64,000 nt of DNA from Cytophagales bacterium (GTDB lineage: Bacteria; Bacteroidota; Bacteroidia; Cytophagales; Spirosomataceae): NCBI GenBank assembly GCA_004292855.1, contig RDXN01000079.1:1-64000 (forward strand), given 5' to 3'. Shown piece after piece: positions 27,474 through 63,214 of this stretch; the stretch's first letter is position 1, and each line of letters opens with the position of its first letter. A program made the position numbers and the translations under genes. The notes below the pieces were generated by a model. That model searched no databases. It was given only the letters and a program-made list of their open reading frames with translations, and had not been told where the DNA came from.

Positions 27474-27720
27474 AGCGTTGAGTTTTAATGTTTGCTGACG
27501 ATTTCTTGCACAGACAACACTAAAATACACAACTATTCTTTTCGTTTGTAGCAAACGACATTAAATTTTAAGAATTTTCGTCCAAAGTGATCGTTTTGGC
27601 AGTCATTTTTTTATGGATAATTCATCCGAAAAGCTAACGATATTTTCTCGATCTGCTCACTTTGTAGATTTTATTTGGGGCGTTTCAATTTTGTGTTTTG
27701 CGCAACCTTAAAGCAGCCTA

Positions 27721-27817
27721 TATTGGCCTTACGGCCATGCCGGAAAATATCCGGCATTACATGGAGGGGCAACTTTTGTAATGCCGGATACTTTCCGGCA
27801 TGGCCGTAAGGCCAATA
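27721..27817. repeat. Palindromic mirror element, 40-bp arms, family shared with the SCO gene
   Basis: Bases 27721-27760 and 27778-27817 are reverse complements with one mismatch around a 17-base loop. Each arm contains two smaller hairpins, GGCC-TTAC-GGCC and TGCCGGA...TCCGGCA. A related unit in the SCO gene (51713-51746) matches at 28 of 34 positions. The rest of the gap 27474-27843 is AT-rich, and I see no gene in it. Confidence 0.85.
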
Positions 27818-27843
27818 ACACACAAGTTTGGAAATGCACCCCT

Positions 27844-51060: not shown

Positions 51061-51153
51061 TTTTTGTCATCCCGACGCAGGAGGGATCTACTCTGTTTAT
51101 AATTGAGTTGCTCGTGCGGAAAGTAGATCCCTCCTGTGTCGGGATGACAAAAA
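51061..51153. repeat. Palindromic mirror element, GTCAT family, 32-bp arms
   Basis: Bases 51061-51092 and 51122-51153 are reverse complements with one G-T type mismatch and a 29-base loop. The arm reads TTTTTGTCATCCCGACGCAG then GAGGGATCTACT. It belongs with the element at 46989-47091. The T-run and A-run at the outer ends would let it terminate transcription both ways. Confidence 0.9.
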
Positions 51154-51181
51154 ATACAATACAACGCTGAAACCATCATTA

Positions 51182-51637
51182 ATGAGAACACTTTCATTTT
51201 TTTTCGCAGCCAGTCTGCTCTCCATTTCCCTGTCCTGCCAAAACAATGGGCAGGGCGACGCCGTGAAAACCACCGAAGCGGAGGTTTTCAAAATCCACGA
51301 CGAGGTGATGCCACGCATCAGCGACATTATGAAGCTTCGTAAGGAGTTGAGTACACGCATTGCGGCCACCGACAGTGCGGCCACAACATCGGGCACGCCC
51401 TCGATGGCCCTCCGGTCGGACGAAGAGAAAGAGCAGGCTATGCTCCTGAACCGCCGGTTGGCCGAAGCCGACAGCCTGATGATGAGCTGGATGGAGAACT
51501 ACAAAGGCGACACGCTGACGGTTTTGAAACCCGAGCAGGCTATACAATATCTCGATGCCGAGAAGGAGAAAATCACCAATGTTCAACAAAAAATCAATAG
51601 CAGCATCGCTGATGCAAAGAAGTTTCTGGGGCAGTAG
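51182..51637 (+). CDS. Helical lipoprotein of unknown function
   Basis: 151 residues. The lipobox is LLSISLSCQN with Cys19. The mature part is two long helices with coiled-coil character (EVFKIHDEVMPRISDIMKLR, then YLDAEKEKITNVQQKINSSI). Similar proteins in Bacteroidota are sometimes annotated 'viral A-type inclusion protein', which has no functional meaning. It precedes the SCO and cytochrome c genes and may share their transcript; the SCO frame overlaps its end. Confidence 0.75.
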   Translation: MRTLSFFFAASLLSISLSCQNNGQGDAVKTTEAEVFKIHDEVMPRISDIMKLRKELSTRIAATDSAATTSGTPSMALRSDEEKEQAMLLNRRLAEADSLMMSWMENYKGDTLTVLKPEQAIQYLDAEKEKITNVQQKINSSIADAKKFLGQ

Positions 51638-52349
51638 TGTTGTGCCGGCGGTCCGTCGCCACGGAATTTTCCGGCACAGCCGAAAGGCTAAAAAATTGCT
51701 CTCCGGCTCAGGTTGGCCTTTCGGCCATACCGGATGGTATCCGGTACTACTCTTGTTTCTGGTCGGTTGCCAAACCGAAGACAAACTTCCCATTTTGGGT
51801 CAGAAGGAGGTCGTAACCCGAACCCAAAACGGTAAAACCGTAACTGACTCGGTAGAACACACCATCCCTGATTTCCGGTTTGTGAGTCAGTATGGTGACA
51901 CCGTTTCGGCCCAAACGCTGGACGGAAAAATCTACGTGGCTGACTTCTTTTTCACCACCTGCCCGACCATCTGCCCCAAAATGAAAACCCAGTTGAAGCG
52001 GGTTTACGACCGGTTTAAGGGTAATCCGAAGGTCATGCTGCTCTCGCATACCATCGACCCTCGGCATGATTCGGTGGCCGTTTTGCGCGAGTTTGCGCAG
52101 AGTCTGGGGGTAGAGGGGCGGCAATGGTTGTTCGTGACCGGAGATCGCGAAACGATTTACGAGATCGGCGAGAAAAGCTACATGGTCACGGCTGCCGAGG
52201 ATGCGTCGGCACCGGGGGGCGTGGTACACAGCGGGGCGTTTATTCTGGTTGATACCAAAAAACGTATTCGGGGGATCTACGATGGCACTACCCAAGATGG
52301 CGTTGACCGACTCATGACCGATATGGACAAATTACTGAATGAAAAATAA
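51612..52349 (+). CDS. SCO-family copper-binding thioredoxin-fold lipoprotein
   Basis: About 245 residues if it starts at the ATG at 51612; in-frame ATGs at 51555 and 51579 are also possible. A lipobox (LLLFLVGCQ) is followed by a thioredoxin fold with copper ligands in FTTCPTICPKM (CxxxC) and the distant His in GGVVHSGAF. SCO proteins carry copper to the CuA site of cytochrome c oxidase. The segment before the lipobox is unusually long (about 45-50 residues) and basic, and is encoded by the palindromic repeat at 51662-51746. A cytochrome c gene overlaps the end. Confidence 0.88.
   Translation: MQRSFWGSSVVPAVRRHGIFRHSRKAKKLLSGSGWPFGHTGWYPVLLLFLVGCQTEDKLPILGQKEVVTRTQNGKTVTDSVEHTIPDFRFVSQYGDTVSAQTLDGKIYVADFFFTTCPTICPKMKTQLKRVYDRFKGNPKVMLLSHTIDPRHDSVAVLREFAQSLGVEGRQWLFVTGDRETIYEIGEKSYMVTAAEDASAPGGVVHSGAFILVDTKKRIRGIYDGTTQDGVDRLMTDMDKLLNEK
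51662..51746. repeat. Palindromic repeat units inside the SCO gene's leader region
   Basis: Two inverted units lie at 51662-51690 and 51713-51746. The second holds GGCC-TTTC-GGCC and TACCGGAT...ATCCGGTA; the first holds AGCC/GGCT and a GCCGG/CCGGC pair in the opposite direction. They match the intergenic element at 27721-27817 in layout. Here the DNA is coding and gives residues such as SGWPFGHTGWYP just before the lipobox. Confidence 0.78.
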
Positions 52350-52764
52350 GCTCATTGCCGCCGTTACGGTCGTTGTCACCTCCTTTCTGTTTTTCTCTTC
52401 TTGCCAAAGTCAGGAGGAAATTAAGCGGCAGAAGTACATCACAGAAGGCATTTTGCAGTATCAGAACAACTGTGCTAACTGTCATGGGCGCGATGGTAAG
52501 GGTCTGGCGGCCTTGTACCCGCCGATTGCCGGTTCGGAGTATCTGGCCAAAAAAGATAGCATCATTCACATCATCAAATACGGTCAACAGGGTCCCATTA
52601 TGGTGCGGGGCAAACGATATAACCGCCCCATGCCTGCCCAAACACACCTGAGTGATCTGGAAATTGCCGAGATCGTTACCTACATCGATGCGGAGTGGAA
52701 CAACAGCAAGGAGATCACCGATATGAAGTATGTTCGGAAGCTCCTGCAAAACAATAGTCGGTAG
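52339..52764 (+). CDS. Class I cytochrome c lipoprotein
   Basis: 141 residues. The lipobox is FLFFSSCQS with Cys22. The haem site is NNCANCHGRDGKG (C45, C48, H49), and the likely axial Met is in YNRPMPAQTHLSD. Helix LSDLEIAEIVTYI completes the fold. It carries electrons on the outer face of the membrane. The start overlaps the SCO gene by 11 bases; together they suggest a link to terminal oxidase function. Confidence 0.92.
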   Translation: MKNKLIAAVTVVVTSFLFFSSCQSQEEIKRQKYITEGILQYQNNCANCHGRDGKGLAALYPPIAGSEYLAKKDSIIHIIKYGQQGPIMVRGKRYNRPMPAQTHLSDLEIAEIVTYIDAEWNNSKEITDMKYVRKLLQNNSR

Positions 52765-62749: not shown

Positions 62750-63214
62750 ATGCCCAATACCTATACCCAAATCTATATTCAAACCGTCTTTGCGGTCAAG
62801 CACCGGCATGGTCTCATTCGGTCCGAGTGGAAAGAGGATTTGTACCGCTACATGACGGGTATCATTCAAAAGCAAGGGCACAAGTTGATCGCCATCAATG
62901 GCATGTCCGATCACGTCCATGTTTTTATTGGACTCAACCCGAAGCAATCCATTTCAGAGCTACTCCAATACCTCAAAATGGACTCGTCAAAATGGATTAA
63001 TGAAAACCGATTGGTTCAGGGTCGTTTTGAGTGGCAAACAGGCTACGGCGCATTTTCGTACGGACACTCGCAAATAGATGACGTCGTCAAATACATTCAA
63101 AATCAAGAAGAGCACCACCGCAAACGGACGTTTTTGGAGGAGTACACGCTGTTTCTAGACAAGTTCAACGTGCCGTATGATGAACGATACGTCTTCAAAC
63201 CAGTTGAAGAATAA
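62750..63214 (+). CDS. IS200/IS605-type Y1 transposase (possibly REP-associated)
   Basis: 154 residues, full length for TnpA. The HUH motif is DHVHVFIGLNP (H-V-H) and the catalytic Tyr is in DDVVKYIQNQEEHH. Such enzymes cut and join single-stranded DNA at hairpins. There is no TnpB gene and no clear insertion-sequence ends. Downstream (63244-63598) lies an array of hairpin repeats, the arrangement expected of a transposase that acts on repeated palindromes rather than on its own element. Confidence 0.88.
   Translation: MPNTYTQIYIQTVFAVKHRHGLIRSEWKEDLYRYMTGIIQKQGHKLIAINGMSDHVHVFIGLNPKQSISELLQYLKMDSSKWINENRLVQGRFEWQTGYGAFSYGHSQIDDVVKYIQNQEEHHRKRTFLEEYTLFLDKFNVPYDERYVFKPVEE

Follow-up and report, generated by a model that had tools for sequence, protein, structure and literature searches.

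The locus described here raises a simple question: how does a gene for an SCO1/SenC-family lipoprotein come to carry, in frame within its leader, a palindromic repeat that is also found between genes? The window (the whole stretch of DNA analyzed here, 64,000 nucleotides) lies on contig C30 of a 6.25-Mb Rudanella-type draft genome (108 contigs, 96.5% complete). We consider it very probable that the repeat is a RAYT-type mobile REPIN that inserted past the upstream gene's stop codon, and thus into the SCO leader, with the reading frame kept. REPINs are non-autonomous elements built from two REP hairpins in inverted orientation, thought to be copied via a single-stranded hairpin by a RAYT (TnpA_REP) transposase. 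In the SCO case it would have inserted just past the upstream stop codon, a frequent location of REPINs in the source genome, and because SCO overlaps that stop, beginning 59 nt before the upstream gene ends, the insertion would have fallen in the lipoprotein signal peptide, at the boundary of n-region and h-region. It presumably survived because a REP is nearly free of stop codons in one forward frame and because the net length keeps the frame.

The original prediction had placed a palindromic repeat at 51662-51746, whose right-hand unit (51713-51746) resembles an intergenic unit at 27723-27756. A recount gave exactly 28 identities in 34 positions between these two units, and the paired differences that had been pointed out, TACCGG/CCGGTA in the SCO copy against TGCCGG/CCGGCA in the intergenic one and AGCC/GGCT in place of GGCC/GGCC in the inverted partner, are present in the sequence as claimed. 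The palindromic repeat is real as well, but its extent had been drawn too narrowly: the left half begins before 51662, its long-form hairpin occupying 51643-51676, and the full element reaches from 51639 to 51750 (Table 1). The right unit has the foot GTAG and the left unit GTTG. The fold of the SCO segment has a z of -5.9 and that of the intergenic segment a z of -14.5, with 0 of 200 shuffles equally stable.

Table 1. Features of the SCO locus and of related elements; positions are those of the window unless a contig is named
Feature	Position	Strand	Remarks
SCO1/SenC-family lipoprotein gene	51579..52349	+	256 aa from ATG 51579; Pfam SCO1-SenC E 7.4e-25
Upstream 151-aa ORF	51182..51637	+	stop TAG 51635-51637 inside SCO leader
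REPIN, inverted pair of REP units	51639..51750	+	112 bp, in frame inside SCO leader; ends GTTG...CTAC
Left REP, long form	51639..51691	+	covariance-model match 40.0 bits
Left REP, hairpin	51643-51648/51671-51676		after GTTG; nested hairpin (CCGTCGCCACGG)
Left REP, second hairpin	51678-51681/51686-51689		AGCC/GGCT
Right REP, short form	51713..51750	-	covariance-model match 60.8 bits
Right REP, hairpin	51728-51735/51739-51746		GTAG + TACCGGAT/ATCCGGTA
Right REP, second hairpin	51715-51718/51723-51726		GGCC/GGCC
Intergenic REPIN, same family	27723..27815		two REP units
Larger element enclosing the intergenic REPIN	27676..27841		terminal inverted repeats like GGGTGCATTTCAATCTTGTG; ends approximate (fuzzy match)
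RAYT gene	C70:96794-97279		over NCBIfam cut-off

The SCO repeat belongs to a family that is dispersed in its own genome. A DNA search with the SCO segment returned 41 pieces at E<0.001 (SCO itself included) and 63 at E<=10, and a covariance model gave at least 142 matches at E<=0.01 (150 of 4073 first-look candidates scored), some of them opposite-strand matches of one hairpin. The 64 spans that we read (36 + 28) were drawn from both searches and place the family at over 60 sites. As is typical of REPINs and GTAG REPs, the repeated unit is an imperfect palindrome, about 20-60 nt long; units form inverted doublets, and some stand singly (e.g. L283, L291, L296). The commonest unit consists of GTAR, a first hairpin (TGCCGGAT..ATCCGGCA), a second hairpin (RGCC-N4-GGCY) and AA. 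The 5' foot, read in 81 units, is GTAG in 34, GTAA in 31, GTTG in 9, GTTA in 4, GTCA in 2 and GTGG in 1. With at most 150 candidates scored per genome, the covariance model found no match at E<=0.01 in 28 other genomes, three congeners included. A widespread family was rejected, the congeners having short matches only (best E 0.002-0.07); the genome of L085, the relative with the nearest SCO, gave three weak matches at E<=1 (best 0.004). Pieces of GGTCCGTCGCCACGG (L070, L074-L077, L198, L202) lack a surrounding REP and were judged by eye to be chance matches, probably coding.

The existence of further genomic copies, on which the original prediction had been made to depend, allowed its claim of paired stem changes to be examined in two alignments. 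A fuzzy search gave 237 matches, most of them false by eye, from which 42 short and 25 long units were kept, one of the long ones (window 34746) being false; the 42 short units, 37 of them distinct, form alignment A1. Alignment A2 holds 39 ungapped units (35 distinct) from 23 of 27 loci fetched after the covariance-model search, leaving out L291, L298, L301, L303, the second matches of L286 and L302 and the second span of L288; its units are absent from A1, but the model that retrieved them was derived from A1, so that A2 leans to the A1 structure. In both, 97.1% of the cells are paired (481 cells in A1, 455 in A2), with double-sided changes at 5 and 7 of the 13 pairs, respectively, and sliding the partner by 1-3 columns lowers pairing to 14-40%. 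None of 500 shuffles, which take no account of the copies' shared descent, equaled A1 in its percentage of paired cells or in its covariation score, and none reached any of five measures in A2. One A1 measure of the five, further standard pair types, was at chance level (10 against 10.3, with 459 of 500 shuffles as high). Counted by cell, double-sided changes (38 in A1 and 37 in A2) are more frequent than standard changes of one side only (17 and 24) or cells left unpaired (14 and 13). The fourth base of the foot can also pair, in 35 of 37 distinct units of A1 and 32 of 35 of A2, and the second hairpin may, by eye, diverge widely and yet still pair (L298, L301, L302).

What such covariation means for SCO had been left between two readings, a fold under selection and a repeat copied as a hairpin. 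The latter is supported by the dispersed inverted-doublet family, its co-varying stems and the RAYT-like genes flanked by REP-like palindromes. Selection on the fold inside SCO was rejected, since the TACCGG/CCGGTA variant is carried by 6 of 81 units, namely the SCO unit and five others; those other units that come closest to the SCO right unit depart from it at 4 of 38 positions. Most likely, therefore, the double change predates the insertion and arrived with the mobile element, in which case it says nothing of selection inside SCO; the co-varying stems would reflect a need of the mobile element for its hairpin and no need of SCO. It is very unlikely that the SCO gene or mRNA uses the hairpin as a functional element, such as a regulator, an attenuator or a control of translation at the overlap, whose fold is kept by selection. 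Its strong fold, its intact stems and its location exactly at a gene junction would all fit such a role, but L086, L087 and other relatives whose genes overlap in much the same way lack the insert, its paired variants are common to the mobile family, and the fold in L085 is unrelated. A known structured RNA was rejected on the lack of any Rfam match at E<=1 in 51400-51900, and a terminator or promoter role on a scan of 51100-52500, which gave no match on the + strand and four on the - strand, all outside the element. The intergenic copy suggests a different kind of mobility. The larger element that encloses it is flanked on both sides by TTTATTTG, an 8-bp direct repeat (read by eye), and might be taken for a conventional MITE moved by a DDE transposase. 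At least one GGGTGCATTTCAATCTTGTG-like terminal repeat lies nearby in 15 of 62 REPIN loci tested, the 27723 copy among them, and at L049 a terminal-repeat element with TTTGCAAC on both sides (read by eye) sits inside another REPIN. However, 47 of the 62 loci, including the SCO copy, have no such repeat nearby, and the bare copies end at GTAR-like tetranucleotides, often beside stop codons; as an account of the SCO repeat itself, we give the MITE hardly any chance.

The comparison with the same gene in relatives is unusually clear. The SCO1-SenC domain (Pfam) covers residues 98-229 of the window protein, placing it in the family, and the upstream 151-aa ORF has no Pfam match. The REPIN starts 1 nt past the stop codon of this ORF, in frame with SCO, and separates the n-region from the h-region and lipobox (LVGC), so that the leader reads MFNKKSIAASLMQRSFWG-SS-(REP-coded)-LLLFLVGC. 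Congeners of this genome include Rudanella paleaurantiibacter (G001), a Rudanella MAG (G003, which carries L086) and G002 (which carries L012). The odd leader that had been remarked on is real, as the insert is absent from the SCO leaders of all three congeners in the comparison (L086, L087 and L012). The leader of L086 runs MFKKKSPVALPMRNSFWG-LSNAQLILAFVLMVGSASC. Counted up to the lipobox Cys, the window has 63 residues, L086 36 and L085 59; the window leader is thus 27 residues longer than that of L086, and a gain of 81 nt for an element of 112 bp points to a loss of some 31 nt from the host sequence. The start position and the MFxKKS opening are common to SCO, L085 and L086, and a similar overlap is seen in further relatives. 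In a census of 79 leaders (78 relatives and the window, two relatives having too little upstream sequence), perfect inverted arms measured 20 bp in L085, 13 in L121, 12 in L122, 11 in L139 and 10 in the window.

The REP sequence is presumably translated as part of the leader. The sole common start codon between element and lipobox is a TTG, and the 5 codons that separate it from the Cys leave no room for a signal peptide; provided that genes here start only with ATG, GTG or TTG, at least part of the REP sequence must therefore be translated. How much of it is translated depends on TTG 51696, inside the element, from which the left REP would be a 5' leader only and few residues would be gained. 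We regard a start there as unlikely, even though AAAAAA precedes this TTG and REPs at annotated N-termini may, according to PMC3733652, often be untranslated: ATG 51579 and the basic n-region are common to L085 and L086, the shorter product would have no Lys or Arg before its h-region, and the REPIN of a GH13 gene lies mid-protein. The insert would probably be near-neutral for SCO. L085 (deposited as Flavobacterium sp. SUN052), whose SCO is nearest to that of the window (84%), provides what looks like an independent, parallel insertion. Its leader contains, in frame, the palindrome GTATGGTGGATTTGTAATCC with 20-bp perfect arms, a REPIN that sits 4 nt past the same upstream stop and differs from that of the window; the L085-type family is dispersed in the L085 genome and flanks its RAYT (over cut-off) on both sides. 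Two insertions at one site are proposed because the window and L085 sequences are unrelated. A single ancestral insertion that later diverged would account for near relatives having inserts that start 1 nt and 4 nt past one shared stop codon, and the window, L085 and L086 branch in no clear order within a group of five rows that has 93/94 support, below the 95/80 mark of the tool. We nevertheless find common ancestry quite improbable, as the sequences are unrelated by eye, each insert matches the dispersed family of its own genome and L086 has none.

The position just past a stop codon is not peculiar to SCO. Of 41 bare REPIN loci, 14 lie 0-20 nt from the end of an outside ORF of at least 120 codons, against 1.8 expected from random placement, where the 41 loci exclude the SCO copy, most terminal-repeat loci and single-unit loci and the ORFs are long open frames, not annotated genes. 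A looser count, an ORF 3' end within 20 nt, gives 28 of 41 against 2.0 expected and is partly built in; in 19 of those 28 the stop codon of the ORF is the TAG/TAA that the REP itself supplies in its GTAR. At a further 16 loci the only ORF ends are at the REP's own GTAR, which may reflect gene-end insertion or a cut gene; beyond 14 of 21 ORF ends of this type the frame is then open for at least 80 codons, and some of these may be insertion-cut genes. Only 3 of the 41 bare loci lie inside an ORF, against 32.2 by random placement, a difference that cannot be counted as depletion because an out-of-frame insertion itself ends the ORF. Forward frames 1, 2 and 3 are open in 41, 7 and 4 of 42 units, respectively, and the reverse frames in 39, 20 and 42. 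Survivors read forward would use one frame because only frame 1 is nearly stop-free. Frame 1 (VVP/VVS) is also the one used for the first REP of each of the four REPINs noted inside genes, those of SCO, a glycosyltransferase, an alpha-amylase and a membrane ORF.

In-frame copies are found in at least 5 of the 64 spans, SCO included, the other read-through ORFs having been judged by eye. In a GT2 glycosyltransferase (C5; Pfam Glycos_transf_2) the REPIN stands in place of the linker that joins the membrane helix to FSVIIPVRNE, and it is absent from the 13 homologues examined (17 other genomes had a match). In an alpha-amylase family protein (C39, GH13; Pfam) a 140-bp REPIN occupies a length-variable loop and is absent from 10 aligned relatives, among them L314 with a longer, different loop. 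A 567-aa membrane ORF without a Pfam match (C57) carries an in-frame REPIN as well. The fifth case, a 137-aa secreted CxxCH protein (C47; L296:1457-1867), has a single REP after its signal peptide, and its orthologues in G059 and G003 (L186, L305) have degenerate REP-like pieces at about the same place. Other spans were taken by eye as non-genes or pre-gene leaders: L039, L041, L049, L056, L058, L060, L061, L062, L067, L068, L278, L282, L284, L291, L292, L294, L295 and L300, plus shorter ones.

The mobile reading calls for an enzyme, and the source genome has two RAYT-like genes, on C70 (over the NCBIfam cut-off) and on C101 (below it), both of which are flanked by palindromes. On both sides of the C70 gene lie inverted pairs that end in AGCC-GNRA-GGCT-AA, which is the end hairpin (hairpin 2) of the SCO family, and the C101 gene is flanked by GTAG palindromes of another sequence. 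No RAYT flanked by an exact SCO-family REP was found in this draft genome; the nearest flank shares only the end hairpin. Movement of the SCO family in particular would probably be driven by a RAYT, for which these genes are candidates. G002 has a RAYT-like gene, scoring below the cut-off, with an inverted pair of the same two-hairpin plan (GGCCGCAAGGCCAA) ahead of it.

The SCO REPIN is ordinary in kind, with unusually clear comparative evidence. Like the REPINs and GTAG REPs described with RAYTs, the family forms inverted hairpin doublets, is dispersed and is limited to few species, and it shares with them REP termini that serve as TAG stops and RAYTs flanked by REPs (PMC3116915, PMC3733652). 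The GTAG-type end of those systems is seen in part of the units, and their frequent location near ORF 3' ends may apply here too. The family differs in having two hairpins per unit (a variable one and usually RGCC-N4-GGCY), in GTAA being about as common as GTAG, in the fourth base pairing with the stem foot in most units and in having only candidates for its cognate RAYT. REPs and REP dimers inside ORFs have been described, including a case in recB, where two Xanthomonas species carry different REPs at roughly one position (PMC3733652); the SCO case differs by its occurrence in Bacteroidota, in a lipoprotein signal peptide and at a gene overlap, and by the comparison with insert-free congeners. 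The Rickettsia palindromic elements, palindromes of about 150 bp of which nearly half of those first reported lie inside ORFs, many in frame (PMC10969869), are likened here by description, not by sequence; in the present family the in-frame share is at least 5 of 64 spans. Among TnpA_REP proteins, subclasses 2.4 and 2.6 are Bacteroidetes RAYTs; REPs may occur in frame inside tnpA_REP in 2.4, and 2.6 has atypical flanking structures and motifs that, by motif reading alone, resemble those of the C70 protein (NHIH, FWQ, YIHENP) (PMC6006769). Intragenic REPs, in-frame palindromic elements and REP-supplied stops are thus in print (PMC3733652, PMC6006769, PMC3116915, PMC8266576, PMC10969869), and in the open-licence PMC literature we found no paper on the SCO case.

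The locus offers a clean case of a supposedly extragenic mobile repeat turning protein-coding, with insert-free congeners for comparison and with a simple proposed cause, a stop-codon preference at a site that the next gene downstream overlaps. Double-hairpin REPs with strong covariation are documented here in Bacteroidota as well. A wider proposal, which we regard as doubtful, is that the REPINs of this genus target stop-codon sites and are thereby repeatedly written into the N-termini of overlapping downstream genes, RAYT-linked REPs being a recurrent, lineage-specific source of leader and linker peptides with the single open frame as a filter. If it were true, REP-derived peptides would include those of SCO (twice), the glycosyltransferase linker, the amylase loop and the secreted CxxCH protein.

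Several further observations concern the transposases and elements of these genomes. The genome has eight Y1 matches, one of which lies in the window itself, an IS200-like Y1 transposase gene at 62762-63106 (Pfam Y1_Tnp, 103.9 bits). As carriers of the REPs these IS200-like loci were rejected: a loose pattern gave scattered one- or two-mismatch matches at L001, L002, L003, L005, L007 and L008 and none at L004, and by eye there are no SCO-family REP pairs. At L062:1306-1533 a REPIN is apparently split, a terminal-repeat element having inserted between its two units. Both flanks of the RAYT at L006:1224-2246 are inverted pairs of long multi-hairpin REPs with an AGCC-GNRA-GGCT-AA end. At L204 (G003:C511), an array of ATGGTGGATTTGCAATCC repeats that codes for MVDLQSA four times lies ahead of a RAYT gene and shares its open frame.
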